Part shown: piece by piece, positions 779-53,632 of the stretch
How the letters are laid out: each line of letters starts with the position of its first letter
How positions within the stretch are numbered: position 1 is the stretch's first letter
Source: Arenicola marina
Lineage: Eukaryota; Annelida; Polychaeta; Arenicolidae
Direction of reading: 5' to 3'
NCBI GenBank assembly: GCA_964019135.1
Contig: OZ025249.1
Span: 31,819,759-31,883,758, forward strand
Length of the DNA stretch: 64,000 nt
Position numbers and translations under genes: made by a program
Notes under the pieces: model-generated
What the model saw: the letters and a program-made list of their open reading frames with translations, nothing else
Told to the model about the DNA's origin: nothing
The model's database searches: none

Positions 779-900
779 TTTCCCGGTCCCGGTCGTCATA
801 TTGCACCTCGCCGTCTGAGTCTGAGTCGTGCAGGTTGTCATAGTCAGGGTCATAGGCGTGAGGGTGGTTTTCCTTGTTACTCTGGTCCACCATGTGGGCT
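779..900 (-). CDS. PHACTR: PHACTR homologue, acidic NKEN/DSDSDG exon
   Basis: This is a 122-nt exon on the minus strand. It encodes AHMVDQSNKENHPHAYDPDY, then DNLHDSDSDGEVQYDDRDRE. The NKEN block followed by an acidic DSDSDG..Y-DD segment is the conserved region that precedes the C-terminal RPEL triplet in PHACTR proteins, so the missing RPEL2-4 and PP1-binding exons should lie beyond position 1. The acceptor is CTCTCCCTCACCCAG (plus 901-902), entering in phase 2. The donor is GTAAGTAC (plus 773-778), leaving in phase 1. The first ten exon bases plus the acceptor are repeated about 192 times in the adjoining intron (901-11022). The 26-bp repeat at 713-778 runs into the donor. Family identity is strong from the motif pair. 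Confidence 0.9.
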
Positions 901-3900
901 CTGGGTGAGGGAGAGAAAGCATGGCTTGTTATTATACTGTATCATGTGGGCTCTGGGTGAGGGAGAGAAAGCATGGCTTGTTATTATACTGTATCATGTG
1001 GGCTCTGGGTGAGGGAGAGAAAGCATGGCTTGTTATTATACTGTATCATGTGGGCTCTGGGGTGGGGGAGAGAAAGCATGGCTTGTTATTATACTGTATC
1101 ATGTGGGCTCTGGGGTGGGGGAGAGAAAGCATGGCTTGTTATTATACTGTATCATGTGGGCTGTGGGTGAGGGAGAGAAAGCATGGCTTGTTATTATACT
1201 GTATCATGTGGGCTGTGGGTGAGGGTGAGAAAGCATGGCTTGTTATTATACCGTATCATGTGGGCTCTGGGGTGGGGGAGAGAAAGCATGGCTTGTTATT
1301 ATACTGTATCATGGGGGCTCTGGGGTGGGGGAGAGAAAGCATGGCTTGTTATTATACTGTATCATGGGGGCTCTGGGGTGGGGGAGAGAAAGCAGGGCTT
1401 GTTATTATACTGTATCATGTGGGCTCTGGGGTGAGGGAGAGAAAGCATGGCTTGTTATTATACTGTATCATGTGGGCTCTGGGGTGGGGGAGAGAAAGCA
1501 TGGCTTGTTATTATACTGTATCATGTGGGCTCTGGAGTGGGGGAGAGAAAGCATGGCTTGTTATTATACTGTATCATGTGGGCTCTGGGGTGGGGGAGAG
1601 AAAGCATGGCTTGTTATTATACTGTATCATGTGGGCTGTGGGTGAGGGAGAGAAAGCATGGCTTGTTATTATACTGTATCATGTGGGCTCTGGGGTGGGG
1701 GAGAGAAAGCATGGCTTGTTATTATACTGTATCATGTGGGCTGTGGGTGAGGGAGAGAAAGCATGGCTTGTTATTATACTGTATCATGTGGGCTCTGGGG
1801 TGGGGGAGAGAAAGCATGGCTTGTTATTATACTGTATCATGTGGGCTCTGGGGTGGGGGAGAGAAAGCATGGCTTGTTATTATACTGTATCATGTGGGCT
1901 CTGGGGTGGGGGAGAGAAAGCATGGCTTGTTATTATACTGTATCATGTGGGCTGTGGGTGAGGGAGAGAAAGCATGGCTTGTTATTATACTGTATCATGT
2001 GGGCTCTGGGGTGGGGGCGAGAAAGCATGGCTTGTTATTATACTGTATCATGTGGGCTGTGGGTGAGGGAGAGAAAGCATGGCTTGTTATTATACTGTAT
2101 CATGTGGGCTCTGGGGTGGGGGAGAGAAAGCATGGCTTGTTATTATACTGTATCATGTGGGCTCTGGGGTGGGGGAGAGAAAGCATGGCTTGTTATTATA
2201 CTGTATCATGGGGGCTCTGGGGTGGGGGAGAGAAAGCATGGCTTGTTATTATACTGTATCATGTGGGCTCTGGGGTGGGGGAGAGAAAGCATGGCTTGTT
2301 ATTATACTGTATCATGTGGGCTGTGGGTGAGGGAGAGAAAGCATGGCTTGTTATTATACTGTATCATGTGGGCTCTGGGGTGGGGGAGAGAAAGCATGGC
2401 TTGTTATTATACTGTATCATGTGGGCTGTGGGTGAGGGAGAGAAAGCATGGCTTGTTATTATACTGTATCATGTGGGCTCTGGGGTGGGGGAGAGAAAGC
2501 ATGGCTTGTTATTATACTGTATCATGTGGGCTCTGGGGTGGGGGAAAGAAAGCAGGGCTTGTTATCATACTGTATCATGTGGGCTCTGGGGTGGGGGAGA
2601 GAAAGCATGGCTTGTTATTATACTGTATCATGTGGGCTGTGGGTGAGGGAGAGAAAGCATGGCTTGTTATTATACTGTATCATGTGGGCTCTGGGGTGGG
2701 GGAGAGAAAGCAGGGCTTGTTATCATACTGTATCATGTGGGCTCTGGGGTGGGGGAGAGAAAGCATGGCTTGTTATTATACTGTATCATGTGGGCGCTGG
2801 GTGAGGGAGAGAAAGCATGGCTTGTTATTATACTGTATCATGTGGGCTCTGGGGTGAGGGAGAGAAAGCATGGCTTGTTATTATACTGTATCATGTGGGC
2901 TTTTGGGTGGGGGAGAGAAAGCAGGGCTTGTTATTATACTGTATCATGTGGGCTCTGGGGTGAGGGAGAGAAAGCAGGGCTTGTTATTATACTGTATCAT
3001 GGGGGCTCTGGGGTGGGGGAGAGAAAGCAGGGCTTGTTATTATACTGTATCATGTGGGCTCTGGGGTGAGGGAGAGAAAGCAGGGCTTGTTATTATACTG
3101 TATCATGTGGGCTCTGGGGTGAGGGAGAGAAAGCATGGCTTGTTATTATACTGTATCATGTGGGCTCTGGGGTGAGGGAGAGAAAGCATGGCTTGTTATT
3201 ATACTGTATCATGTGGGCTTTTGGGTGGGGGAGAGAAAGCAGGGCTTGTTATTATACTGTATCATGTGGGCTCTGGGGTGAGGGAGAGAAAGCATGGCTT
3301 GTTATTATACTGTATCATGTGGGCTCTGGGTGAGGGAGAGAAAGCATGGCTTGTTATTATACTGTATCATGTGGGCTCTGGGGTGAGGGAGAGAAAGCAG
3401 GGCTTGTTATTATACTGTATCATGGGGGCTCTGGGGTGGGGGAGAGAAAGCATGGCTTGTTATTATACTGTATCATGTGGGCTCTGGGGTGGGGGAGAGA
3501 AAGCATGGCTTGTTATTATACTGTATCATGTGGGCTCTGGGGTGGGGGAGAGAAAGCATGGCTTGTTATTATACTGTATCATGTGGGCTCTGGGGTAGGG
3601 GAGAGAAAGCATGGCTTGTTATTATACTGTATCATGTGGGCTCTGGGGTGGGGGAGAGAAAGCATGGCTTGTTATTATACTGTATCATGTGGGCTGTGGG
3701 TGAGGGAGAGAAAGCATGGCTTGTTATCATACTGTATCATGTGGGCTCTGGGGTGGGGGAGAGAAAGCATGGCTTGTTATTATACTGTATCATGTGGGCT
3801 GTGGGTGAGGGAGAGAAAGCATGGCTTGTTATTATACTGTATCATGTGGGCTCTGGGGTGGGGGAGAGAAAGCAGGGCTTGTTATCATACTGTATCATGT

Positions 3901-6900
3901 GGGCTCTGGGGTGGGGGAGAGAAAGCATGGCTTGTTATTATACTGTATCATGTGGGCGCTGGGTGAGGGAGAGAAAGCATGGCTTGTTATTATACAGTAT
4001 CATGTGGGCTCTGGGGTGAGGGAGAGAAAGCATGGCTTGTTATTATACTGTATCATGTGGGCTTTTGGGTGGGGGAGAGAAAGCAGGGCTTGTTATTATA
4101 CTGTATCATGTGGGCTCTGGGGTGAGGGAGAGAAAGCAGGGCTTGTTATTATACTGTATCATGTGGGCTCTGGGGTGAGGGAGAGAAAGCATGGCTTGTT
4201 ATTATACTGTATCATGTGGGCTCTTGGGTGGGGGAGAGAAAGCAGGGCTTGTTATTATACTGTATCATGTGGGCTCTGGGGTGAGGGAGAGAAAGCAGGG
4301 CTTGTTATTATACTGTATCATGGGGGCTCTGGGGTGGGGGAGAGAAAGCATGGCTTGTTATTATACTGTATCATGTGGGCTGTGGGTGAGGGAGAGAAAG
4401 CATGGCTTGTTATTATACTGTATCATGTGGGCTCTGGGGTGGGGGAGAGAAAGCATGGCTTGTTATTATACTGTATCATGTGGGCTCTGGGGTGGGGGAA
4501 AGAAAGCAGGGCTTGTTATCATACTGTATCATGTGGGCTCTGGGGTGGGGGAGAGAAAGCATGGCTTGTTATTATACTGTATCATGTGGGCTGTGGGTGA
4601 GGGAGAGAAAGCATGGCTTGTTATTATACTGTATCATGTGGGCTCTGGGGTGGGGGAGAGAAAGCAGGGCTTGTTATCATACTGTATCATGTGGGCTCTG
4701 GGGTGGGGGAGAGAAAGCATGGCTTGTTATTATACTGTATCATGTGGGCGCTGGGTGAGGGAGAGAAAGCATGGCTTGTTATTATACTGTATCATGTGGG
4801 CTCTGGGGTGAGGGAGAGAAAGCATGGCTTGTTATTATACTGTATCATGTGGGCTTTTGGGTGGGGGAGAGAAAGCAGGGCTTGTTATTATACTGTATCA
4901 TGTGGGCTCTGGGGTGAGGGAGAGAAAGCAGGGCTTGTTATTATACTGTATCATGGGGGCTCTGGGGTGGGGGAGAGAAAGCAGGGCTTGTTATTATACT
5001 GTATCATGTGGGCTCTGGGGTGAGGGAGAGAAAGCAGGGCTTGTTATTATACTGTATCATGTGGGCTCTGGGGTGAGGGAGAGAAAGCATGGCTTGTTAT
5101 TATACTGTATCATGTGGGCTCTGGGGTGAGGGAGAGAAAGCATGGCTTGTTATTATACTGTATCATGTGGGCTTTTGGGTGGGGGAGAGAAAGCAGGGCT
5201 TGTTATTATACTGTATCATGTGGGCTCTGGGGTGAGGGAGAGAAAGCATGGCTTGTTATTATACTGTATCATGTGGGCTCTGGGTGAGGGAGAGAAAGCA
5301 TGGCTTGTTATTATACTGTATCATGTGGGCTCTGGGGTGAGGGAGAGAAAGCAGGGCTTGTTATTATACTGTATCATGGGGGCTCTGGGGTGGGGGAGAG
5401 AAAGCAGGGCTTGTTATTATACTGTATCATGTGGGCTCTGGGTGAGGGAGAGAAAGCATGGCTTGTTATTATACTGTATCATGTGGGCTCTGGGTGAGGG
5501 AGAGAAAGCATGGCTTGTTATTATACTGTATCATGTGGGCTCTGGGGTGGGGGAGAGAAAGCATGGCTTGTTATTATACTGTATCATGTGGGCTCTGGGG
5601 TGGGGGAGAGAAAGCATGGCTTGTTATTATACTGTATCATGTGGGCTCTGGGGTGGGGGAGAGAAAGCATGGCTTGTTATTATACTGTATCATGTGGGCT
5701 CTGGGGTAGGGGAGAGAAAGCATGGCTTGTTATTATACTGTATCATGTGGGCTCTGGGGTGGGGGAGAGAAAGCATGGCTTGTTATTATACTGTATCATG
5801 TGGGCTGTGGGTGAGGGAGAGAAAGCATGGCTTGTTATTATACTGTATCATGTGGGCTCTGGGTGAGGGAGAGAATACATGGCTTGTTATCATACTGTAT
5901 CATGTGGGCTCTGGGGTGGGGGAGAGAAAGCATGGCTTGTTATTATACTGTATCATGTGGGCTCTGGGGTGGGAGAGAGAAAGCATGGCTTGTTATTATA
6001 CTGTATCATGTGGGCTCTGGGGTGGGGGAGAGAAAGCAGGGCTTGTTATCATACTGTATCATGTGGGCTCTGGGGTGGGGGAGAGAAAGCATGGCTTGTT
6101 ATTATACTGTATCATGTGGGCTGTGGGTGAGGGAGAGAAAGCATGGCTTGTTATTATACTGTATCATGTGGGCTCTGGGGTGGGGGAGAGAAAGCAGGGC
6201 TTGTTATCATACTGTATCATGTGGGCTCTGGGGTGGGGGAGAGAAAGCATGGCTTGTTATTATACTGTATCATGTGGGCTCTGGGTGAGGGAGAGAAAGC
6301 ATGGCTTGTTATTATACTGTATCATGTGGGCTCTGGGGTGAGGGAGAGAAAGCATGGCTTGTTATTATACTGTATCATGTGGGCTCTTGGGTGGGGGAGA
6401 GAAAGCAGGGCTTGTTATTATACTGTATCATGTGGGCTCTGAGGTGAGGGAGAGAAAGCAGGGCTTGTTATTATACTGTATCATGGGGGCTCTGGGGTGG
6501 GGGAGAGAAAGCATGGCTTGTTATTATACTGTATCATGTGGGCTCTGGGTGAGGGAGAGAAAGCATGGCTTGTTATTATACTGTATCATGGGGGCTCTGG
6601 GGTGGGGGAGAGAAAGCATGGCTTGTTATTATACTGTATCATGTGGGCTCTGGGGTGGGGGAGAGAAAGCAGGGCTTGTTATTATACTGTATCATGTGGG
6701 CTCTGGGTGAGGGAGAGAAAGCATGGCTTGTTATTATACTGTATCATGTGGGCTCTGGGGTGGGGGAAAGAAAGCATGGCTTGTTATTATACTGTATCAT
6801 GTGGGCTCTGGGGTGGGGGAGAGAAAGCATGGCTTGTTATTATACTGTATCATGTGGGCTCTGGGGTGGGGGAGAGAAAGCAGGGCTTGTTATTATACTG

Positions 6901-9900
6901 TATCATGTGGGCTCTGGGGTGAGGGAGAGAAAGCAGGGCTTGTTATTATACTGTATCATGTGGGCTCTGGGGTGAGGGAGAGAAAGCATGGCTTGTTATT
7001 ATACTGTATCATGTGGGCTCTGGGGTGAGGGAGAGAAAGCATGGCTTGTTATTATACTGTATCATGTGGGCTTTTGGGTGGGGGAGAGAAAGCAGGGCTT
7101 GTTATTATACTGTATCATGTGGGCTCTGGGGTGAGGGAGAGAAAGCATGGCTTGTTATTATACTGTATCATGTGGGCTCTGGGTGAGGGAGAGAAAGCAT
7201 GGCTTGTTATTATACTGTATCATGCGGGCTCTGGGGTGAGGGAGAGAAAGCAGGGCTTGTTATTATACTGTATCATGGGGGCTCTGGGGTGGGGGAGAGA
7301 AAGCAGGGCTTGTTATTATACTGTATCATGTGGGCTCTGGGTGAGGGAGAGAAAGCATGGCTTGTTATTATACTGTATCATGTGGGCTCTGGGTGAGGGA
7401 GAGAAAGCATGGCTTGTTATTATACTGTATCATGTGGGCTCTGGGGTGGGGGAGAGAAAGCATGGCTTGTTATTATACTGTATCATGTGGGCTCTGGGGT
7501 GGGGGAGAGAAAGCATGGCTTGTTATTATACTGTATCATGTGGGCTCTGGGGTGGGGGAGAGAAAGCATGGCTTGTTATTACACTGTATCATGTGGGCTC
7601 TGGGGTAGGGGAGAGAAAGCATGGCTTGTTATTATACTGTATCATGTGGGCTCTGGGGTGGGGGAGAGAAAGCATGGCTTGTTATTATACTGTATCATGT
7701 GGGCTGTGGGTGAGGGAGAGAAAGCATGGCTTGTTATTATACTGTATCATGTGGGCTCTGGGTGAGGGAGAGAAAGCATGGCTTGTTATCATACTGTATC
7801 ATGTGGGCTCTGGGGTGGGGGAGAGAAAGCATGGCTTGTTATTATACTGTATCATGTGGGCTCTGGGGTGGGGGAGAGAAAGCATGGCTTGTTATTATAC
7901 TGTATCATGTGGGCTCTGGGGTGGGGGAGAGAAAGCAGGGCTTGTTATCATACTGTATCATGTGGGCTCTGGGGTGGGGGAGAGAAAGCATGGCTTGTTA
8001 TTATACTGTATCATGTGGGCTGTGGGTGAGGGAGAGAAAGCATGGCTTGTTATTATACTGTATCATGTGGGCTCTGGGGTGGGGGAGAGAAAGCAGGGCT
8101 TGTTATCATACTGTATCATGTGGGCTCTGGGGTGGGGGAGAGAAAGCATGGCTTGTTATCATACTGTATCATGTGGGCTCTGGGTGAGGGAGAGAAAGCA
8201 TGGCTTGTTATTATACTGTATCATGTGGGCTCTGGGGTGAGGGAGAGAAAGCATGGCTTGTTATTATACTGTATCATGTGGGCTCTTGGGTGGGGGAGAG
8301 AAAGCAGGGCTTGTTATTATACTGTATCATGTGGGCTCTGGGGTGAGGGAGAGAAAGCAGGGCTTGTTATTATACTGTATCATGGGGGCTCTGGGGTGGG
8401 GGAGAGAAAGCATGGCTTGTTATTATACTGTATCATGTGGGCTCTGGGTGAGGGAGAGAAAGCATGGCTTGTTATTATACTGTATCATGGGGGCTCTGGG
8501 GTGGGGGAGAGAAAGCATGGCTTGTTATTATACTGTATCATGTGGGCTCTGGGGTGGGGGAGAGAAAGCAGGGCTTGTTATTATACTGTATCATGTGGGC
8601 TGTGGGTGAGGGAGAGAAAGCATGGCTTGTTATTATACTGTATCATGTGGGCTCTGGGGTGGGGGAAAGAAAGCATGGCTTGTTACTATACTGTATCATG
8701 TGGGCTCTGGGGTGGGGGAGAGAAAGCATGGCTTGTTATTATACTGTATCATGTGGGCTCTGGGGTGGGGGAGAGAAAGCATGGCTTGTTATTATACTGT
8801 ATCATGTGGGCTGTGGGTGAGGGAGAGAAAGCATGCCTTGTTATTATACTGTATCATGTGGGCTCTGGGTGAGGGAGAGAAAGCATGGCTTGTTATTATA
8901 CTGTATCATGTGGGCTCTGGGGTGGGGGAGAGAAAGCATGGCTTGTTATTATACTGTATCATGTGGGCTCTGGGGTGGGGGAGAGAAAGCATGGCTTGTT
9001 ATTATACTGTATCATGTGGGCTCTGGGGTGGGGGAGAGAAAGCATGGCTTGTTATTATACTGTATCATGTGGGCTCTGGGGTGGGGGAGAGAAAGCATGG
9101 CTTGTTATTATACTGTATCATGTGGGCTCTGGGGTGGGGGAGAGAAAGCATGGCTTGTTATTATACTGTATCATGTGGGCTCTGGAGTGGGGGAGAGAAA
9201 GCATGGCTTGTTATTATACTGTATCATGTGGGCTTTGGGGTGGGGGAGAGAAAGCATGGCTTGTTATTATACTGTATCATGTGGGCTCTGGGGTGGGGGA
9301 GAGAAAGCATGGCTTGTTATTATGCTGTATCATGTGGGCTCTGGGTGAGGGAGAGAAAGCATGGCTTGTTATTATACTGTATCATGTGGGCTCTGGGTGA
9401 GGGAGAGAAAGCATGGCTTGTTATTATACTGTATCATGTGGGCTCTGGGTGAGGGAGAGAAAGCATGGCTTGTTATTATACTGTATCATGTGGGCTCTGG
9501 GTGAGGGAGAGAAAGCATGGCTTGTTATTATACTGTATCATGTGGGCTCTGGGTGAGGGAGAGAAAGCATGGCTTGTTATTATACTGTATCATGTGGGCT
9601 CTGAGTGAGGGAGAGAAAGCATGGCTTGTTATTATACTGTATCATGTGGGCTCTGGGTGAGGGAGAGAAAGCATGGCTTGTTATTATACTGTATCATGTG
9701 GGCTCTGGGTGAGGGAGAGAAAGCATGGCTTGTTATTATACTGTATCATGTGGGCTCTGGGTGAGGGAGAGAAAGCATGGCTTGTTATTATACTGTATCA
9801 TGTGGGCTCTGGGGTGAGGGAGAGAAAGCATGGCTTGTTATTATACTGTATCATGTGGGCTCTGGGTGAGGGAGAGAAAGCATGGCTTGTTATTATACTG

Positions 9901-11022
9901 TATCATGTGGGCTCTGGGTGAGGGAGAGAAAGCATGGCTTGTTATTATACTGTATCATGTGGGCTCTGGGGTGGGGGAGAGAAAGCATGGCTTGTTATTA
10001 TACTGTATCATGTGGGCTCTGGGTGAGGGAGAGAAAGCATGGCTTGTTATTATACTGTATCATGTGGGCTCTGGGTGAGGGAGAGAAAGCATGGCTTGTT
10101 ATTATACTGTATCATGTGGGCTCTGGGGTGGGGGAGAGAAAGCAGGGCTTGTTATTATACTGTATCATGTGGGCTCTGGGGTGAGGGAGAGAAAGCATGG
10201 CTTGTTATTATACTGTATCATGTGGGCTCTGGGTGAGGGAGAGAAAGCATGGCTTGTTATTATACTGTATCATGTGGGCTCTGGGGTGGGGGAGAGAAAG
10301 CAGGGCTTGTTATTATACTGTATCATGTGGGCTCTGGGTGAGGGAGAGAAAGCATGGCTTGTTATTATACTGTATCATGTGGGCTCTGGGTGAGGGAGAG
10401 AAAGCAGGGCTTGTTATTATACTGTATCATGGGGGCTCTGGGGTGGGGGAGAGAAAGCATGGCTTGTTATCATACTGTATCATGTGGGATCTGGGGTGGG
10501 GGAGAGAAAGCATGGCTTGTTATTAAACTGTATCATGTGGGCTCTGGGGTGAGGGAGAGAAAGCATGGCTTGTTATTATACTGTATCATGTGGGCTCTGG
10601 GGTGGGGGAGAGAAAGCATGGCTTGTTATTAAACTGTATCATGTGGGCTCTGGGGTGAGGGAGAGAAAGCATGGCTTGTTATTATACTGTATCATGTGGG
10701 CGCTGGGTGAGGGAGAGAAAGCATGGCTTGTTATTATACTGTATCATGGGGGCTCTGGGGTGGGGGAGAGAAAGCATGGCTTGTTATTATACTGTATCAT
10801 GGGGGCTCTGGGGTGGGGGAGAGAAAGCATAGCTTGTCATTATACTGTATCATGTGGGCTCTGGGGTGGGGGAGAGAAAGCATGGCTTGTTATTATACTG
10901 TATCATGTGGGCTCTGGGGTGGGGGAGAGAAAGCATGGCTTGTTATTATACTGTATCATGTGGGCTCTGGGGTGGGGGAGAGAAAGCATGGCTTGTTATT
11001 ATACTGTATCATGTGGGCTCTG
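901..11022 (-). repeat. 52/53-bp minisatellite, ~192 copies, each a copy of a 3' splice-site module
   Basis: The units are 52 bp (CTGGGTGAGGG type) or 53 bp (CTGGGGTGGGG or CTGGGGTGAGG type) and nearly identical. On the minus strand each reads TAATAAC, then about 28 nt later CTTTCTCTCCCTCACCCAG, then AGCCCACATG. This matches a branch point, a polypyrimidine tract with AG, and the first ten bases of the adjoining PHACTR exon. Some copies carry CTGTGGG, which still leaves an AG on the gene strand. Higher-order repeats are visible: blocks starting near 2870 recur near 4824, and blocks near 5142 recur near 7041, periods of about 1.95 and 1.90 kb. Units near 9350-9960 are mostly the 52-bp form. 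Long open frames of several hundred codons are by-products of the mixed 52/53 spacing. Confidence 0.95.
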
Positions 11023-12487: not shown

Positions 12488-12740
12488 AAGGGCGGATCCA
12501 GGGGGGGGGGATCCCCCCCCCCCCTTTTTGAGGAAGAATGCGGTTTTTCAATATAAACTTTAGACCACCGTGAACCGCCCCCCCTCTTTTGAGGAAGGAA
12601 GTTATTCGAGGAGGCGTGGATCATACCCCGCCCCCGTTGGTCAATAAATTGGTGAATCCTGCGGTCACAATTTTTTTCAAAGGCCCCTATGCCCCTTCGC
12701 AAGATTGGACCCCCCTTATCACATTCTTGAATCCGCCCCT
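12488..12740. mobile_element. MITE-like element with GGGCGGAT-type terminal inverted repeats
   Basis: The left end is AAGGGCGGATCCAG (12488-12501). The right end is CTTGAATCCGCCCCT (12726-12740), the inverse of AGGGGCGGATTCAAG. The ~250-bp interior has no coding frame. The ends look like those of non-autonomous DNA transposons common in invertebrate genomes; the superfamily was not determined. I could not define a target-site duplication. Confidence 0.6.
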
Positions 12741-13263: not shown

Positions 13264-13771
13264 GAGTTGATGAGGTGCATCCTGGGCTTGGGGGCGACTT
13301 TCGGGGGGGCTCGGGGGGTGCCGTCCGAGCCCCGCATCTGGTGCTGCTTCTCCTGGAGTCGCAGCTGCAGCTGCTGCTGCAGGCGCTGCTGGGACTTGGC
13401 GCCCTTCATGGCGCTGCGGGTCGGCCGCTTGTTGGGGTCGGGCTCGTGCATTGGCACCTCCTCGACCATGGTCGTGGCGGCGGGGGAGGGGTGGCTGTGG
13501 GCCGCCGAGGAAGGCACTGACAGGGGCAGCGTGTTGTAGCCGGGGTGCGCCGCGGAGAAGCCCACCGACCCGCCGCCGCCGCCCTGGCCGCCGCCCTGGC
13601 CGCCGCCCTTTAGGTTGGGCGTCGGGTACATCAGCCCGCCGGTAGGGGGTGGGGTGTAAATGTTGTTGACGACGGGGTGGGCGCCTGCGGAGGAGGGCGC
13701 GGGGGGGTCACCCGACTGAGGCGCGTAGTGTTGGTGGGGGTGGTGGTGATGTGACCGAGGCACCGTGTTAT
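13264..13771 (-). CDS. PHACTR: PHACTR homologue, long disordered exon (His, Pro, Gly and Gln rich)
   Basis: This is a 508-nt exon on the minus strand. In order it encodes NTVPRSHHHHPHQHYAPQ, a Pro/Ser part with NNIYTPPPTGG, a GGGQGGGQGGGGG run, VEEVPMHEPDPNKRPTRS, a Gln-rich helix-prone stretch around QQRLQQQLQLRLQEKQHQ, and PRAPPKVAPKPRMHLIN. PRAPPK fits a PxxPxK SH3-ligand pattern. The acceptor is ATGTTTTCAG (plus 13772-13773), entering in phase 1. The donor is GTAAGTAT (plus 13258-13263), leaving in phase 2, which joins the A of the next exon to make Ser. Read unspliced, the same bases give Ser then TAA, so retention ends the protein exactly at the junction. PHACTR linkers are long, proline-rich and poorly conserved, which fits. 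Confidence comes from phase, splice sites and an open frame of more than 500 nt. Confidence 0.86.
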
Positions 13772-18744: not shown

Positions 18745-21700
18745 GTAGGGCTATAGGCTGTAACCGGGGGATGGGAGCAGTCCCCTCCGCTATAGAGCTG
18801 TAACCGGGGGAAGGGTGCAGTCCCCTCCGCTATAGGGCTGTAACCGGGGGATGGGTGCAGTCCCCTCCGCTATAGGGCTGTACCCGGGGGATGGGTGCAG
18901 TCCCCTCCGCTATAGGGCTGTACCCGGGGGATGGGTGCAGTCCCCTCCGCTATAGAGCTGTAACCGGGGGAAGGGTGCAGTCCCCTCCGCTATAGGACTG
19001 TAACCGGGGGAAGGGTGCAGTCCCCTCCGCTATAGAACTGTAACCGGGGGAAGGGTGCAGTCCCCTCCGCTATAGGGCTGTACCCGGGGGAAGGGTGCAG
19101 TCCCCTCCGCTATAGGGCTGTAACCGGGGGAAGGGTGCAGTCCCCTCCGCTATAGGGCTGTAACCGGGGGATGGGTGCAGTCCCCTCCGCTATAGGGCTG
19201 TAACCGGGGGATGGGTGCAGTCCCCTCCGCTATAGGACTGTAACTGGGGGATGGGTGCATCCCCCTCCGCTATAGGACTGTAACCGGGGGATGGGTGCAG
19301 TCCCCTCCGCTATAGGGCTGTAACCGGGGGAAGGGTGCAGTCCCCTCCGCTATAGGACTGTAACCGGGGGAAGGGTGCAGTCCCCTCCGCTATAGGACTG
19401 TAACCGGGGGAAGGGTGCAGTCCCCTCCGCTATAGGACTGTAACCGGGGGAAGGGTGCAGTCCCCTCCGCTATAGGACTGTAACCGGGGGAAGGGTGCAG
19501 TCCCCTCCGCTATAGGGCTGTACCCGGGGGATGGGTGCAGTCCCCTCCGCTATAGGGCTGTAACCGGGGGATGGGTGCAGTCCCCTCCGCTATAGGGCTG
19601 TAACCGGGGGATGGGTGCAGTCCCCTCCGCTATAGGACTGTAACTGGGGGATGGGTGCATCCCCCTCCGCTATAGGACTGTAACCGGGGGATGGGTGCAG
19701 TCCCCTCCGCTATAGGGCTGTAACCGGGGGAAGGGTGCAGTCCCGTCCGCCATAGGACTGTAACCGGGGGAAGGGTGCAGTCCCCTCCCCTATAAGACTG
19801 TAACCGGGGGATGGTTGCAGTCCCCTCCGCTATAGGACTGTAACCGGGGGAAGGGTGCAGTCCCCTCCGCTATAGGACTGTAACCGGGGGAAGGGTGCAG
19901 TCCCCTCCGCTATAGGACTGTAACCGGGGGAAGGGTGCAGTCCCCTCCGCTATAGGGCTGTAACTGGGGGAAGGGTGCAGTCCCCTCCGCTATAGGACTG
20001 TAACTGGGGGAAGGGTGCAGTCCCCTCCGCTATAGGACTGTAACCGGGGGAAGGGTGCAGTCCCCTCCGCTATAGGACTGTAACTGGGGGATGGGTGCAG
20101 TCCCCTCCGCTATAGGACTGTAACCGGGGGAAGGGTGCATCCCCCTCCGCTATAGGGCTGTAACCGGGGGAAGGGTGCAGTCCCCTCCGCTATAGGACTG
20201 TAACTGGGGGATGGGTGCAGTCTCCTCCGCCATAGGACTGTAACCGGGGGAAGGGTGCAGTCCCCTCCGCTATAGGACTGTAACCGGGCGAAGGTTGCAG
20301 TCCCCTCCGCTATAGGACTGTAACCGGGGGAAGGATGCAGTAACCTCCGCTATAGGGCTGTAACCGGGGGAAGGTTGCAGTCCCCTCCGCTATAGGACTG
20401 TAACCGGGGGAAGGGTGCAGTCCCCTCCGCTATAGGGCTGTAACCGGGGGAAGGGTGCAGTCCCCTCCGCTATAGGACTGTAACCGGGCGAAGGTTGCAG
20501 TCCCCTCCGCTATAGGACTGTAACCGGGGGAAGGATGCAGTCCCCTCCGCCATAGGACTGTAACCGGGGGAAGGGTGCATCCCCCTCCGCTATAGGGCTG
20601 TAACCGGGGGAAGGGTGCAGTCCCCTCCGCTATAGGACTGTAACTGGGGGATGGGTGCAGTCCCCTCCGCAATAGGACTGTAACCGGGGGCAGGGTGCAT
20701 CCCCCTCCGCTATAGGACTGTAACTGGGGGATGGGTGCAGTCCCCTCCGCTATAGGACTGTAACCGGGCGAAGGTTGCAGTCCCCTCCGCTATAGGACTG
20801 TAACCCGGGGAAGGGTGCAGTCCCCTCCGCTATAGGGCTGTAACCGGGGGAAGGGTGCAGTCCCCTCCGCTATAGGACTGTAACTGGGGGAAGGTTGCAG
20901 TCCCCTCCGCTATAGGACTGTAACCCGGGGAAGGGTGCAGTCCCCTCCGCTATGGGGCTGTAACCGGGGGAAGGGTGCAGTCCCCTCCGCTATAGGACTG
21001 TAACTGGGGGAAGGTTGCAGTCCCCTCCGCTATAGGACTGTAACCGGGGGAAGGGTGCAGTCCCCTCCGCTATAGGACTGTAACCGGGGGAAGGGTGCAG
21101 TCCCCTCCGCTATAGGACTGTAACCGGGGGAAGGGTGCAGTCCCCTCCGCTATAGGACTGTAACCGGGGGAAGGGTGCAGTCCCCTCCGCTATAGGGCTG
21201 TACCCGGGGGATGGGTGCAGTCCCCTCCGCTATAGGGCTGTAACCGGGGGATGGGTGCAGTCCCCTCCGCTATAGGGCTGTAACCGGGGGATGGGTGCAG
21301 TCCCCTCCGCTATAGGACTGTAACTGGGGGATGGGTGCATCCCCCTCCGCTATAGGACTGTAACCGGGGGATGGGTGCAGTCCCCTCCGCTATAGGGCTG
21401 TAACCGGGGGAAGGGTGCAGTCCCGTCCGCCATAAGACTGTAACCGGGGGAAGGGTGCAGTCCCCTCCCCTATAAGACTGTAACCGGGGGATGGTTGCAG
21501 TCCCCTCCGCTATAGGACTGTAACCGGGGGAAGGGTGCAGTCCCCTCCGCTATAGGACTGTAACCGGGGGAAGGGTGCAGTCCCCTCCGCTATAGGACTG
21601 TAACCGGGGGAAGGGTGCAGTCCCCTCCGCTATAGGGCTGTAACTGGGGGAAGGGTGCAGTCCCCTCCGCTATAGGACTGTAACTGGGGGAAGGGTGCAG

Positions 21701-23172
21701 TCCCCTCCGCTATAGGACTGTAACCGGGGGAAGGGTGCAGTCCCCTCCGCTATAGGACTGTAACTGGGGGATGGGTGCAGTCCCCTCCGCTATAGGACTG
21801 TAACCGGGGGAAGGGTGCATCCCCCTCCGCTATAGGGCTGTAACCGGGGGAAGGGTGCAGTCCCCTCCGCTATAGGACTGTAACTGGGGGATGGGTGCAG
21901 TCTCCTCCGCCATAGGACTGTAACCGGGGGAAGGGTGCAGTCCCCTCCGCTATAGGACTGTAACCGGGCGAAGGTTGCAGTCCCCTCCGCTATAGGACTG
22001 TAACCGGGGGAAGGATGCAGTAACCTCCGCTATAGGGCTGTAACCGGGGGAAGGTTGCAGTCCCCTCCGCTATAGGACTGTAACCGGGGGAAGGGTGCAG
22101 TCCCCTCCGCTATAGGGCTGTAACCGGGGGAAGGGTGCAGTCTCCTCCGCCATAGGACTGTAACCGGGGGAAGGGTGCAGTCCCCTCCGCTATAGGACTG
22201 TAACCGGGCGAAGGTTGCAGTCCCCTCCGCTATAGGACTGTAACCGGGGGAAGGATGCAGTCCCCTCCGCCATAGGACTGTAACCGGGGGAAGGGTGCAG
22301 TCCCCTCCGCTATAGGGCTGTAACCGGGGGAAGGGTGCAGTCCCCTCCGCTATAGGACTGTAACCGGGGGAAGGATGCAGTCCCCTCCGCCATAGGACTG
22401 TAACCGGGGGAAGGGTGCAGTCCCCTCCGCTATAGGGCTGTAACCGGGGGAAGGGTGCAGTCCCCTCCGCTATAGGACTGTAACTGGGGGATGGGTGCAG
22501 TCCCCTCCGCAATAGGACTGTAACCGGGGGCAGGGTGCATCCCCCTCCGCTATAGGACTGTAACTGGGGGATGGGTGCAGTCCCCTCCGCTATAGGACTG
22601 TAACCGGGCGAAGGTTGCAGTCCCCTCCGCTATAGGACTGTAACCCGGGGAAGGGTGCAGTCCCCTCCGCTATAGGGCTGTAACCGGGGGAAGGGTGCAG
22701 TCCCCTCCGCTATAGGACTGTAACTGGGGGAAGGTTGCAGTCCCCTCCGCTATAGGACTGTAACCCGGGGAAGGGTGCAGTCCCCTCCGCTATGGGGCTG
22801 TAACCGGGGGAAGGGTGCAGTCCCCTCCGCTATAGGACTGTAACTGGGGGAAGGTTGCAGTCCCCTCCGCTATAGGACTGTAACCGGGGGAAGGGTGCAG
22901 TCCCCTCCGCTATAGGACTGTAACCGGGGGAAGGGTGCAGTCCCCTCCGCTATAGGACTGTAACCGGGGGAAGGGTGCAGTGCCCTCCGCTATAGGACTA
23001 ACCGGGGGAAGGGTGCAGTGCCCTCCGCTATAGGACTGTAACTGGGGGAAGCTTGCAGTCCCCTCCGCCATAGGACTGTAACCGGGGGAAGGGTGCAGTC
23101 CCCTCCGCTATAGGACTGTAACCGGCGGAAGGGTGCAGTCCCCTTCGCTATAGGACTGTAACTGGGGGATGG
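18745..23172. repeat. 40-bp minisatellite, ~110 copies, with higher-order structure
   Basis: The unit is GGACTGTAACCGGGGGAAGG plus GTGCAGTCCCCTCCGCTATA. The period is exactly 40 over most of the array; one 2-bp deletion occurs near 23000. A block beginning near 19501 is repeated from 21181, giving a higher-order period of 1680 bp (42 units). CAGTCC and GGACTG within a unit can pair as a 6-bp stem; GGGCTG variants would pair by one G-U wobble in RNA. Confidence 0.95.
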
Positions 23173-23451
23173 GTGGGGACAGGAGAATTGTCATACGCTC
23201 GTTAGCTCATGTCATGTTCTTAATGCTTCCGTCCGTCCAAAACCTCAAAAAACATGTTGTAAAACAGCCGTACTCAAAACGGCGTAAGTACCAGTACCGA
23301 GCAAGAACAAGATGCCACCCCCCCCCCCCCTACACCACGCCCAAGAGGCGCTCCCACCTCTGCAATGGCCGTCTCGGTGAAATAAATAACGACATGCCGT
23401 AAAACAGCAGCGGCGTGTCCTTCATGCGGGCCACTCACTTGCTCGACTTAC

Positions 23452-23760
23452 CGTAGTGGTTACCATGGTGATGGCCGTGCATCCCCATGCCCGAGCCGCC
23501 GCTGAGGGGTCGCGGCGTGCAGTCCGGTGACAACGATATCGTCGCGTCCGTCTGGTCGTCCCCAGTGTCGCCGGCGTCTCCACGGTTACCGTGGCTGCCA
23601 TGGCGACCCCCGTGGTTGCCATGGCCTCCGGGGTCGCTGCCAGCCTGGCTGCCGTAGCCGAGGTAGACGTCCCCGCCGCCGCCGCCGCCTCCGTTGGCGG
23701 CGCTGCCGTTGGCCTGAACCTCCTGCTCTGAGGACGGTTCAGACTTCTCCTTGACGGCCT
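23452..23760 (-). CDS. PHACTR: PHACTR homologue, Gly/His-rich linker exon
   Basis: This is a 309-nt internal exon on the minus strand. It begins EAVKEKSEPSSEQEVQANGS, continues through a seven-glycine run and GGHGNHGGRHGSHGNRG-type low complexity, and ends near MGMHGHHHGNHYG. The acceptor is GTATTTCCAG (plus 23761-23762) and the donor is GTAAGTCG (plus 23446-23451). Both edges are phase 1, so it splices without frame loss to the RPEL exon upstream and to 17152-17006 downstream. The start is acidic (KEKSEPSSEQE), like the variable linker after RPEL1 in the family. The rest is low complexity and probably disordered, so it carries no diagnostic domain. The call rests on the open frame, good splice sites and phase continuity. 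A dense 40-bp minisatellite ends about 280 bp downstream and a 42-bp one starts about 220 bp upstream. Confidence 0.82.
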
Positions 23761-24527: not shown

Positions 24528-24865
24528 GGCTTGGGTGCTCGGGACCTGTGCTACCTACTCTAGACCTGGCTTGGGTGCTCGGGACCTGTGCTACCTACTC
24601 TAGACCTGGCTTGGGTGCTCGGGACCTGTGCTACCTACTCTAGACCTGGCTTGGGTGCTCGGGACCTGTGCTACCTACTCTAGACCTGGCTTGGGTGCTC
24701 GGAACCTGTGCTACCTGCTCTAGACCTGGCTTGGGTGCTCGAAACCTGTGCTACCTACTCTAGACCTGGCTTGGGTGCTCGGGACCTGTGCTACCTACTC
24801 TAGACCAGGCTTGGGTGCTCGGGACCTGTGCTACCTACTCTAGACCTGATTTGGGTGCTCGTGAC
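24528..24865. repeat. 40-bp minisatellite, ~8-9 copies
   Basis: The unit is CTACCTACTCTAGACCTGGC plus TTGGGTGCTCGGGACCTGTG. Its right part is inside the first copy of the 2.2-kb duplication and therefore reappears at 26885-27067. Confidence 0.93.
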
Positions 24866-26884
24866 CTGGCGTAAGTCGTTTGCAGGCTCCTCTCTTGTGT
24901 CATTAAGAAACTAGGGGGCCAGTCTGGCCTCTCAACACGTGATAACAGAGGACCGAAGAGGTTAATACTGTTAGCACGGGGCCAACTACCCGCCCACGGA
25001 GCCCCGGGGGAGAGGTCGGCAGAGGCCGGGCAAAGAAAGGGGGGTGGGGTGGAGGGGGGGGGGGGGGTGTTTCGGAGCAGTACGGGGTACTCATCGAGTG
25101 TCGAGAGAGGGCGGTTTCCCGTGTATACGGATCATAAACGTCAATCCAGATAGACCGATCCGTCCAGCCAGACAGAGCGAGGGGCGTGGTAGGGAAGGCA
25201 GAGATACCGCGGGAGGGAAGACAGAGACAGCGAGAGAGACATAGAGGGAGGGAGAGAAAGTGAATGGGAGAACTGAGAGGGAGATGATCAGAGAACAGAA
25301 AGGGAGGGAGATGGAGCTGGAGATGGACGTCCAATAGGGTGAAGTGGAGGCCAGCTCTCAGGGTCTGCCGACAAGTGGAGGTGGGTGGGGCCCATCCGTC
25401 CATCCCAGCGTAATGGAGGGTTCGGAGCAGAGAAGGAACCACACAGTGCGCACACGGACATCCTTACATTCTCAACAGACGTCAGGGACAACGTGGATGG
25501 CCCTCTCGCGTTGTTTAACGTTACTCCCTCCACATATCTTAAAGCTAACACCCTTGGCTGCCTGAGTACTGCTGGCCACACCCAGCGTCTCACTATAGAG
25601 CCTCCTGGTCTGGCGGAACCGCCTGACACACCCACAGGCCACGCGGGTCGATAACATGCCTTTTTACTCAATTATGATGAGTTACCAACTACAGGGCGTG
25701 GACGCCGCCGCCGCCACGGTGGGTTCAGACTAACGGTGTGTAGGTCTGGTATGTTATGTCATGGTTCATTGATTGAACTCTAGCTGGTACTTCACGAGAG
25801 GAATAAAGAAGTCATTAAACCGGTAAATTCGGAACAGGACCATCGACAGCTGTCTCCACCAAGTCCATTGTGGACGAGGTGACAAGGCACTAAATCAATT
25901 TCTGACCATTAATTGGACACACGCTGGACTGGGGGCCGGCCGGCCGGCCCGGCAGGCAGGCCCGGCAGGCAGGCCCGCGGTAGGTGCTAAAGGCTACCAA
26001 TCCGTCTGATTGCCCGCGGGAGGCAGGCGAGAGAGGTGGGGGGGGGGGGGGGGGGGGAGGGAGGGGAGGGGGGAGATGTTACTCTGCCTTCTTTGGCTGC
26101 CGTACCCCCCCCCCCCACCACCCCAAGGCGTCAGGTGTGATCCGGGTGGTCAGGATGCTCTCACCCTCGTCCGCTCCCCATCCGGCCTCCCCACACCTCA
26201 ATCTGCCCCAGGCAGCTGGTAATGCTGACCCTCTGCCCCCAGTGCTGCACAGCTTGCCCCCCTCCCCCTCCCCTCCACCCCCCCCGGCCGCCACCCCCTC
26301 AATCCCTGTCGGCAGCTGGTGATAACGGCGACCTGTTGTTATTTCTCTATCCCGGCCACAGAGACTCCTGGAAAGGTTAATCTACCGCGGGGTGCCGACC
26401 CTCCGTAAACCCCCCCCCACTCCCCCCCAATCACCCCCGCTCTCGTTCGACGGCCTTCCCCCCTTCCTACATCAGGCGTGGAAGGGCAACCGCCATACTT
26501 GCAGCATACACCTCCCAATACCTCAACCTACCACCAGTTACCCTAGAGGCCGCCCCCCCGGCCCCAACCAACGTAGCTACCCGCCCCTCCCCTTCGCTCG
26601 GGGCGATCCCAGCGACCCCCCCCCCTCCCGCCCCTCCTCCCATAAGGCATCCAGCGTCCCTTCCTAGCAGCCAGCCCAATGCCCCATCCACCTACCCAAC
26701 CCCCATTCCGATAGAGCAGTCCCCACTTCCAAAAGCCCCCCTCCTCTCTCATCCTCCCTCTTGCCAAAGCTCCCGTTCTTCTTTCATCCACCCTCTTCCC
26801 GAGGCCCCCCTCTCCTCTCAAATCCCCCCTTCGCCATCTTCCCACCCCTCCTCTCCGCCCGACGGCCTCCACGCCCGCTCCCAG
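24685..26884. repeat. 2.2-kb tandem duplication, copy 1 (2200 bp)
   Basis: This copy aligns base for base with 26885-29076, as far as I could read. The differences I see are three homopolymer lengths: G14 versus G13, G20 versus G15, and C12 versus C10. The left boundary falls inside the 40-bp minisatellite. The content is GC-rich and non-coding: G and C runs, a GGCCGGCCGGCC stretch, and C-rich pyrimidine tracts. Confidence 0.95.
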
Positions 26885-29076
26885 CCTGGCTTGGGTGCTC
26901 GGAACCTGTGCTACCTGCTCTAGACCTGGCTTGGGTGCTCGAAACCTGTGCTACCTACTCTAGACCTGGCTTGGGTGCTCGGGACCTGTGCTACCTACTC
27001 TAGACCAGGCTTGGGTGCTCGGGACCTGTGCTACCTACTCTAGACCTGATTTGGGTGCTCGTGACCTGGCGTAAGTCGTTTGCAGGCTCCTCTCTTGTGT
27101 CATTAAGAAACTAGGGGGCCAGTCTGGCCTCTCAACACGTGATAACAGAGGACCGAAGAGGTTAATACTGTTAGCACGGGGCCAACTACCCGCCCACGGA
27201 GCCCCGGGGGAGAGGTCGGCAGAGGCCGGGCAAAGAAAGGGGGGTGGGGTGGAGGGGGGGGGGGGGTGTTTCGGAGCAGTACGGGGTACTCATCGAGTGT
27301 CGAGAGAGGGCGGTTTCCCGTGTATACGGATCATAAACGTCAATCCAGATAGACCGATCCGTCCAGCCAGACAGAGCGAGGGGCGTGGTAGGGAAGGCAG
27401 AGATACCGCGGGAGGGAAGACAGAGACAGCGAGAGAGACATAGAGGGAGGGAGAGAAAGTGAATGGGAGAACTGAGAGGGAGATGATCAGAGAACAGAAA
27501 GGGAGGGAGATGGAGCTGGAGATGGACGTCCAATAGGGTGAAGTGGAGGCCAGCTCTCAGGGTCTGCCGACAAGTGGAGGTGGGTGGGGCCCATCCGTCC
27601 ATCCCAGCGTAATGGAGGGTTCGGAGCAGAGAAGGAACCACACAGTGCGCACACGGACATCCTTACATTCTCAACAGACGTCAGGGACAACGTGGATGGC
27701 CCTCTCGCGTTGTTTAACGTTACTCCCTCCACATATCTTAAAGCTAACACCCTTGGCTGCCTGAGTACTGCTGGCCACACCCAGCGTCTCACTATAGAGC
27801 CTCCTGGTCTGGCGGAACCGCCTGACACACCCACAGGCCACGCGGGTCGATAACATGCCTTTTTACTCAATTATGATGAGTTACCAACTACAGGGCGTGG
27901 ACGCCGCCGCCGCCACGGTGGGTTCAGACTAACGGTGTGTAGGTCTGGTATGTTATGTCATGGTTCATTGATTGAACTCTAGCTGGTACTTCACGAGAGG
28001 AATAAAGAAGTCATTAAACCGGTAAATTCGGAACAGGACCATCGACAGCTGTCTCCACCAAGTCCATTGTGGACGAGGTGACAAGGCACTAAATCAATTT
28101 CTGACCATTAATTGGACACACGCTGGACTGGGGGCCGGCCGGCCGGCCCGGCAGGCAGGCCCGGCAGGCAGGCCCGCGGTAGGTGCTAAAGGCTACCAAT
28201 CCGTCTGATTGCCCGCGGGAGGCAGGCGAGAGAGGTGGGGGGGGGGGGGGGAGGGAGGGGAGGGGGGAGATGTTACTCTGCCTTCTTTGGCTGCCGTACC
28301 CCCCCCCCACCACCCCAAGGCGTCAGGTGTGATCCGGGTGGTCAGGATGCTCTCACCCTCGTCCGCTCCCCATCCGGCCTCCCCACACCTCAATCTGCCC
28401 CAGGCAGCTGGTAATGCTGACCCTCTGCCCCCAGTGCTGCACAGCTTGCCCCCCTCCCCCTCCCCTCCACCCCCCCCGGCCGCCACCCCCTCAATCCCTG
28501 TCGGCAGCTGGTGATAACGGCGACCTGTTGTTATTTCTCTATCCCGGCCACAGAGACTCCTGGAAAGGTTAATCTACCGCGGGGTGCCGACCCTCCGTAA
28601 ACCCCCCCCCACTCCCCCCCAATCACCCCCGCTCTCGTTCGACGGCCTTCCCCCCTTCCTACATCAGGCGTGGAAGGGCAACCGCCATACTTGCAGCATA
28701 CACCTCCCAATACCTCAACCTACCACCAGTTACCCTAGAGGCCGCCCCCCCGGCCCCAACCAACGTAGCTACCCGCCCCTCCCCTTCGCTCGGGGCGATC
28801 CCAGCGACCCCCCCCCCTCCCGCCCCTCCTCCCATAAGGCATCCAGCGTCCCTTCCTAGCAGCCAGCCCAATGCCCCATCCACCTACCCAACCCCCATTC
28901 CGATAGAGCAGTCCCCACTTCCAAAAGCCCCCCTCCTCTCTCATCCTCCCTCTTGCCAAAGCTCCCGTTCTTCTTTCATCCACCCTCTTCCCGAGGCCCC
29001 CCTCTCCTCTCAAATCCCCCCTTCGCCATCTTCCCACCCCTCCTCTCCGCCCGACGGCCTCCACGCCCGCTCCCAG
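26885..29076. repeat. 2.2-kb tandem duplication, copy 2 (2192 bp)
   Basis: This is a direct repeat of 24685-26884. The 8-bp shortfall is fully explained by the three homopolymer differences (1 + 5 + 2). It begins at CCTGGCTTGGG, directly after CGCTCCCAG, the end of copy 1. It may be a very recent duplication or an assembly artefact. Confidence 0.95.
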
Positions 29077-30442
29077 CCCACACGCCCCCATCGCTCCCAG
29101 CACACACGCCCCCACCCGGCATGTTGACCTAATGAAAGCCTTACATCACGACCGAGGCTGGCAGACCGCTGACAACAACTGACGTACCCGCCCAATAACG
29201 TGCTCAGTGAGGGTGGCAGGGTGGGTGGGTATGGGGCTCCCTTGGGTAGGGACACGGTATATAAACAGTATCTCTGGTACCGGGGTATACCGGGGTATAC
29301 CGGGGTATACCGGGGCACCGGAGCTCCTTTGTTCCACCCCCACCTTGAGCCCAAGAGGGGCAGTCGGGAGGGATCTCAGAAGCTCCAGTACGGAGCCGCA
29401 AAAAGCGTCCAGAATACACAAAGCTCAACACAACACGACAGTACTATTATGTTATGAATCCAGTTACACCGTTGGCCCATTAACTCTGTGTAATGTGTCA
29501 AACCGTGGGTAAGAGAGAACTGTTATGACGCCCCCCCCCCCCACACACACATACACCGTACGGGAGTCTGTGGGTACTGTGGGTAGGAGGGTACTCTTAT
29601 GACTACCCCCCCCATACACACACACACTGTACTGCGTCATTCCGTGGGTAAGACGATAGATGTGACACATGTAAGCTTCTCCTTCCCCTTTAATACCACC
29701 CCCCTCCCACTCCATCACCTCCAGGCTGAGTGGAGCAGACGCATCCCGTTAATCCAGATGTCCCGGATCCGTACGAGCAGCAATACAACGCGCACATCGC
29801 GATCCAGTACTGACACCGCCCAGGGTGGGGTGGGGTGCGAGGGAGTGGGGTGTGATCACTAAGGGCCAGCTGCCGCCACCCTCACCCCTCCCCCCCCCCC
29901 TCCAGCCTGCGCTCCCCCGTCAGCTCCAGTCACTCACAGCCCTTTTCCCGCACGCACTAAATCTCTTTGATGGCGAACCGTGTGTCCAACGTTACGCGGG
30001 TCTCGGCCATCTACTGCTCCCTTCCCCACCCACCCACACCCCTACCCATGCATACCTGCACAACCCGGATACCGACCTCCCCACCCGCGACACCTACTCC
30101 CCACCCCCCATTCTACCCGCGCCATGTGATACCGCCTGCCCCCCCCCCTCCTCCGGCACCCCTAACACATTCTCGCATTGAGCTCCCGAGGTGATAAGTA
30201 AGAAAGATTCATTCCCCTATTATGAGCCTCTTGCCTGTCTCAGTCCTGGCTTCAGCCGGCAATCCAGCGCCCCCCTAACCCCACCCCCCACCCCCCACCG
30301 CTACCAAACTAGTCTATATCCCAGCCGTCCATGTCTGCATCAACAGGTTCTTAAACAACGCCCCCCCCCCACCCCACAGCCCCTATACGCCGCATCATGG
30401 GTTCGTGGGCGTCTCAGTACAGTCAGCTACACGGAACTTCCT
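29077..30442. other. Intronic stretch with small repeats, no gene seen
   Basis: It contains a short GGTATACCGGG tandem (29278-29318), two related ~100-bp segments with C runs and CACACA (about 29500-29600 and 29600-29660), and a C-rich region (29870-30370). TATATAAACAG at about 29260 resembles a TATA box but has no supported transcript. Confidence 0.5.
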
Positions 30443-37302: not shown

Positions 37303-37502
37303 NNNNNNNNNNNNNNNNNNNNNNNNNNNNNNNNNNNNNNNNNNNNNNNNNNNNNNNNNNNNNNNNNNNNNNNNNNNNNNNNNNNNNNNNNNNNNNNNNN
37401 NNNNNNNNNNNNNNNNNNNNNNNNNNNNNNNNNNNNNNNNNNNNNNNNNNNNNNNNNNNNNNNNNNNNNNNNNNNNNNNNNNNNNNNNNNNNNNNNNNNN
37501 NN
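37303..37502. other. Assembly gap of 200 N
   Basis: Exactly 200 unknown bases, a typical fixed-size scaffold gap. Open frames that cross it are meaningless. The gap lies in the 29.8-kb PHACTR intron, so a short exon could be hidden here. Confidence 0.99.
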
Positions 37503-53236: not shown

Positions 53237-53512
53237 TCTCACAGCCCCACCCTCGGAGACGGCGGAGATTGGTATCTCTGCATGGAGATGGGCACAGGTA
53301 TGAGCTATTCAGTAAAGACTGGGTGACTGACATAGCGCTGTCGTCAGCGCCACCCCCGGAGACGGCGGGCAGTGGAGATTGATATCCCTGCATGGCGATG
53401 GACATTAAGACTGGGTGACTGACTTGCCGCTGTCGTCAGCGCCACCCCCGGAGACGGGCGGGCAGTGGAGATTGATATCCCTGCATGGACACGGACATTA
53501 AGCCTGACTTAC
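53237..53512 (-). repeat. Tandem partial copies of the RPEL exon 3' end and donor
   Basis: The last 45 nt of the exon (53513-53557) recur at 53428-53473 (one extra G), 53336-53380 and, shorter, at about 53242-53270. On the gene strand the nearest copy ends GACAGCG followed by GCAAGT, a GC-type donor. The next has lost the donor (CTATGT). The repeats sit directly after the true GTAAGT donor. They look like the start of a minisatellite seeded on an exon edge. Confidence 0.85.
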
Positions 53513-53632
53513 CGCTGTCGTCAGCGCCACCCTCGGAGACGGCGGGCAGTGGAGATTCGTCGACATCGCGGAGAACCCCCCGCTTGATGAGTTCCTCGCG
53601 GGTGGTGCGTACAGAGATCTTTCTTTCCAGGT
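53513..53632 (-). CDS. PHACTR: PHACTR homologue, exon with the N-terminal RPEL motif (internal exon, partial gene)
   Basis: This is a 120-nt exon read on the minus strand. It encodes 39 whole codons, LERKISVRTTREELIKRGVL followed by RDVDESPLPAVSEGGADDS. LERKIS..REELIKRGVL is the first RPEL repeat of phosphatase and actin regulators. In that family, RPEL repeats bind G-actin and a C-terminal segment binds protein phosphatase 1. As in vertebrate PHACTRs, this first repeat lacks the proline of the RPEL name. The acceptor is ...CTTCTGAAG (plus 53633-53634), preceded by a long CT-rich tract (53640-53681). The donor is GTAAGT (plus 53507-53512). Incoming and outgoing phases are both 1, and the outgoing G joins AG of the next exon to give Glu. 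The upstream N-terminal exon (basic segment) was not found in the window. Family identity is near certain; the exon edges are predicted. Confidence 0.92.

Follow-up and report, generated by a model that had tools for sequence, protein, structure and literature searches.

Minisatellites that extend across exon-intron boundaries have been described in amphioxus, whose globin genes contain minisatellite-like duplications of intron-exon boundaries that were named 'mirages' after the case of Adh3 (Ebner et al., 2010; PMC3087553). One of them, the BflGb6 mirage, is of the acceptor type, comprising the 3' end of an intron together with the 5' part of an exon, and has six and three units in two haplotypes (PMC3087553). 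PGBD5 carries repeats of 60 and 108 bp across splice sites, of which different assemblies show 2 to 7 copies; troponin C has also been named as a mirage case (PMC3902484). According to these reports, lancelet mirages seemingly do not hinder regular splicing (PMC3087553, PMC3902484). The array analysed here, which lies in a PHACTR gene, resembles the amphioxus mirages (Adh3, BflGb6, BflGb9, troponin C and PGBD5) in that it is a minisatellite spanning an exon-intron boundary, with many copies that contain splice signals, and in that acceptor and donor types both occur. A further parallel is the human IFI6 (6-16) gene, in which Turri is said to have described, in 1995, a minisatellite with multiple splice donor sites that are used in alternative transcripts. 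In both genes, each repeat unit offers a splice site beside an exon; however, the IFI6 units are donors with reported use in transcripts, whereas the PHACTR units are predicted acceptors.

The earlier note on this DNA knew of no described case of such size. This statement holds at most for the size, since the PHACTR array belongs to a described kind, the mirage, of which BflGb6 represents the acceptor type (PMC3087553), and it is far larger than the globin and PGBD5 cases, with 192 copies compared to the 2 to 7 given there. A literature search, with most subscription journals outside its scope, returned no recognisable title on an acceptor array of this size. Lancelet genomes have a G+C content of about 41%. 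The non-array part of our sequence has a higher value of 52% (CpG observed/expected, 0.81), so that the lancelet precedent may come from another lineage; if the animal is not a lancelet, boundary mirages exist outside the cephalochordates.

Anatomy and integrity of the acceptor array

The window, i.e., the whole stretch of 64,000 nt that was analysed, contains part of a PHACTR gene on its minus strand, with further downstream exons, in which the C-terminal RPEL motifs of a PHACTR would be sought, lying outside. Four exons were delineated:

53513..53632, minus strand: RPEL exon, 120 nt, the most upstream exon found
23452..23760, minus strand: exon C, 309 nt
13264..13771, minus strand: exon A, 508 nt, upstream partner of exon B, donor CTC/GTAAGT
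779..900, minus strand: exon B, 122 nt, first ten bases (900-891) within the array, donor AAA/GTAAGT

The most upstream exon (53632-53513) encodes an N-terminal RPEL motif of the PHACTR type (Pfam, E=2.5e-8), and its top PDB match is the PHACTR1 RPEL peptide (8.4e-6). These matches identify the predicted gene as PHACTR, and the in-phase joins of 53632-53513, 23760-23452, 13771-13264 and 900-779, which are stop-free over 352 aa, further bear out this assignment, already made in the earlier note. None of exons A, B and C (0/3) has a Pfam match. When the joined exons served as the query of a protein search, none of the 7,992 candidates that were scored reached E<=0.001, and Rfam (gathering thresholds) and ARAGORN (bacterial code) returned no matches. 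Judged by its reading frame and splice signals, exon B is a credible exon that would be used as such.

The intron between exons A and B measures 12,363 nt, 82% of which is occupied by the array:

891..11022, minus strand: acceptor mirage, 192.2 copies of a 52/53-bp unit with branch site, pyrimidine tract, AG and ten exon-like bases
901..943, minus strand: real acceptor in the terminal unit, CAG at 903-901, TAATAAC upstream
11010..11022, minus strand: upstream copy of the 13-bp direct repeat CAGAGCCCACATG

TRF reports the array at 891..11022, with a period of 53, 192.2 copies and 95% matches. We located 193 unit starts, whose 192 spacings measure 53 bp in 135 cases and 52 bp in 57; these spacings, together with the ten bases of an exon predicted from frame and splice signals, place the repeats across an exon boundary, as in a mirage. 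On the gene strand, a unit runs from exon-like bases through a linker to TAATAAC and on to a pyrimidine tract and CAG; the distance from the branch A to the AG is mostly 28-30 nt. In the terminal unit, TAATAAC is followed, with 28 nt between the branch A and the AG, by CTTTCTCTCCCTCACCCAG and then by AGCCCACATG, which corresponds to exon bases 900..891. The order of branch motif, spacer, tract and ten exon bases proposed previously is thus confirmed for this unit, and the data support the accompanying view that the last unit of the array is the real acceptor and that the expansion took in the acceptor itself.

The same note spoke of about 192 complete modules. While the number of spacings is real, 'complete' turned out to be too generous. 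A full unit precedes 192 junctions, namely those of 191 decoys and that of the real acceptor. Of these, 176 have an exact TAATAAC, 163 an in-register CAG and 148 both (147 of the 191 decoys), and some YAG lies close by in 182, so that many repeats carry a splice signal, as in mirage minisatellites (163/192 for CAG, 182/192 for YAG). A looser search, which tolerated one mismatch in the branch motif and required the first YAG to follow within 18-42 nt and pyrimidines to make up at least 75%, found 167 modules on the gene strand of the array, none elsewhere on this strand of the window and one on the opposite strand. First-order Markov sequences with the composition of the array gave a mean of 1.57 modules (maximum 5 in 100 runs), and those modelled on the rest of the window a mean of 1.65 (40 runs). 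By this crude measure, the array modules are better than the other three acceptors of the gene, all of which fail the search. The array modules are copies of a single module made by tandem duplication, not independent events. Thirty of them (29 decoys and the real acceptor) are identical over the 52 nt from -42 to +10, and the nearest decoys, at -52 and -104, match the real acceptor over 52-53 nt. We also considered whether the arrays in the window generally contain acceptor modules and rejected this idea, because such modules occur in only two of the 54 TRF rows (period >=14, >=2.5 copies), both of which belong to this array.

Origin and growth of the array

We consider it likely that the array is a very long mirage that arose by passive minisatellite growth and whose terminal acceptor is the one used. 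Minisatellites usually start from short direct repeats. The array opens and closes with CAGAGCCCACATG (11010-11022 and 903-891), which suggests that, before any expansion, the single-copy sequence probably contained a pair of 13-bp direct repeats with a spacing of about 40 bp. The minisatellite would have arisen across the 3' end of the PHACTR intron, its first growth involving unequal exchange or slippage between these copies of CAGAGCCCACATG. Later growth probably took place partly by large blocks, as seen from one block copy of 2,035 nt at a shift of 1,899 (13 mismatches) and another of 1,144 nt at a shift of 1,954 (2 mismatches). Such blocks of up to about 2 kb would have copied the acceptor and the ten exon bases along. 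The exon-side edge of the array would have been fixed by coding constraint, directing the expansion into the intron: only ten exon bases lie within the array, presumably because growth into coding sequence was selected against.

In the one sequence examined, the block duplications fit with length instability between alleles. The near-identical blocks of 1-2 kb would also fit an array that is real but whose length of 192 units is inflated by the assembly or specific to one haplotype. A gap of 200 N at 37303-37502 and a direct tandem duplication of 2.2 kb with 99.6% identity (24685-26886 and 26885-29078), which is either recent or the product of two haplotypes assembled together, point in the same direction. 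However, the 38 distinct unit types in irregular order are unlike a simple stutter, and we regard such an assembly effect as distinctly improbable.

Another reading starts from the pyrimidine content of the array, which contains 192 non-overlapping YUCUYY/YYUCUY motifs, or 19 per kb, compared to 4.2 per kb outside the array. The transcribed intron could, in principle, act as a sponge that binds pyrimidine-tract proteins (PTB-like proteins or U2AF) and alters their supply, similar to the PNCTR RNA, in which pyrimidine motifs are likewise repeated at a density that could, in principle, attract splicing proteins, and whose hundreds of such motifs bind PTBP1 (PMC6224606). However, PNCTR is a noncoding RNA with 565 non-overlapping motifs, whereas the PHACTR array, with its 192, is part of an intron. 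Given, moreover, that the motif density follows from the copying of one unit and that introns are normally short-lived, a role as a sponge appears highly improbable.

Choice among near-identical acceptors

If the array is a passively grown mirage, exon A is most likely joined to exon B at the terminal unit. This acceptor would be chosen since it alone abuts exon B, with its presumed enhancers and its donor, in line with the suggestion in the earlier note that the exon is defined from its GTAAGT donor. Scored with a human donor matrix, none of the 194 GT dinucleotides in the array exceeds 2.6, compared to 6.0-10.3 for the four donors of the gene. The units thus do not resemble the donors of IFI6, and the decoys would only be able to pair with the donor of exon B. 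Pseudo-exons inside the array are not favoured either, as the decoys would find no good donor to form them. Exon definition is therefore plausible, but it is insufficient on its own, because use of the decoys at -52 and -104 would give exons of 174 and 226 nt, which fall into the ordinary range of this process, and it can hardly exclude them; exon enhancers or tolerated waste must be invoked in addition. Since both match the real site over 53 nt and lie within this range, splicing would probably go to a decoy in some cases. We also considered RNA structure that hides the pyrimidine tracts, but it is not favoured: the last units and the exon have z=+1.48, with 96 of 100 shuffled sequences folding at least as well.

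Each of the 192 upstream AGs tested, including that of the partial first unit, leads to a stop 5.3-24.3 codons past the junction. Residual errors may hence be cleared by nonsense-mediated decay. Exon definition and exon sequence together probably ensure that the right acceptor is taken, while nonsense-mediated decay would hide the errors.

The same stops are compatible with a brake or poison switch, in which the decoys compete with the real acceptor, stop-containing mRNA results and the length of the array sets the yield of PHACTR. The branch motif and in-register CAG that are intact in 147 of the 191 decoys and the 29 exact copies of the real acceptor agree with this proposal, as does a slight fall of the in-register CAG towards the exon. 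However, any non-coding insert of this kind is likely to hold stops, normal splicing is reported for lancelet mirages (PMC3087553), and the decoys show no sign of being kept. Deviating units per column average 4.7 for the branch site and AG and 5.5 for other columns (permutation P=0.54, in a test of low power), so that selection keeping the decoys is not favoured. In 26 of the 192 units, the AG has a changed G, a position that ranks fourth among the 53 columns in deviating units. We thus view a brake as unlikely; the analysis yielded no evidence for either the sponge or the brake, both of which the earlier note had raised. Its quantitative extension, a rheostat in which about 147 intact acceptors, some of them identical in sequence, compete with the real one and the share of productive PHACTR mRNA drops as the array grows, with array length differing from one individual to another and perhaps even from cell to cell within a body, is quite unlikely.

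When the array is divided into octiles, the fraction of in-register CAG drops from 1.00 at the far end to 0.75 next to exon B (Spearman -0.19, a value reached by 7 of 192 circular shifts). This fall is weaker for CAG and branch motif together (21 of 192 shifts), and the branch motif alone shows no trend along the array. Because block duplication makes the units non-independent, we treat this trend as a weak hint that nearby decoys matter; it may reflect blocks that drifted or selection acting on decoys close to the exon.

Studies of competing splice sites are usually confounded by unequal strength of the sites. In this array, the real acceptor shares its 52 nt with 29 decoys, so that position must discriminate. 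The array thus offers a natural test of splicing choice among near-identical sites, in which exon definition becomes measurable in a natural gene. Assuming equal competition by the 147 intact decoys, 50% of the mRNA would be correct only if each decoy were used at no more than 0.7% of the weight of the real site, and 90% only if this value were 0.08%. The array also illustrates the size of boundary minisatellite with which a gene may cope, and a way in which material for new acceptors or introns could accumulate.

Other arrays at exon edges

Tandem arrays with periods of at least 10 bp, which merge into 49 stretches and comprise many unrelated units, make up 43% of the window; a further example is the array at 18750-23175 (40 bp x 110.7). 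Two of the eight exon edges lie inside arrays, compared to a mean of 3.46 expected from random rotation of the array map, and 90% of the rotations place at least two edges in arrays. The meeting of an array with an exon edge is thus not above chance in this window; it follows from array density and does not call for a function in splicing. Arrays flank exon B on both sides: apart from the acceptor array, a 26-bp array (713-771) starts 8 bp past the end of its donor and is followed by a 55-bp array (1-678).

The second exon edge concerned is that of the RPEL exon:

53327..53557, minus strand: second small mirage of the donor type, 93 bp x 2.6, repeating the 3' end of the RPEL exon and its donor

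Its two intronic donor copies read GCAAGT and CTATGT, compared to GTAAGT in the real donor. These copies are thus altered (GC and CT for GT), whereas those of the acceptor array are mostly intact.

In the remainder of the intron between exons A and B, an element at 12490..12740 has GGATCC next to long G and C runs, and may resemble short dispersed repeats known from marine invertebrates.
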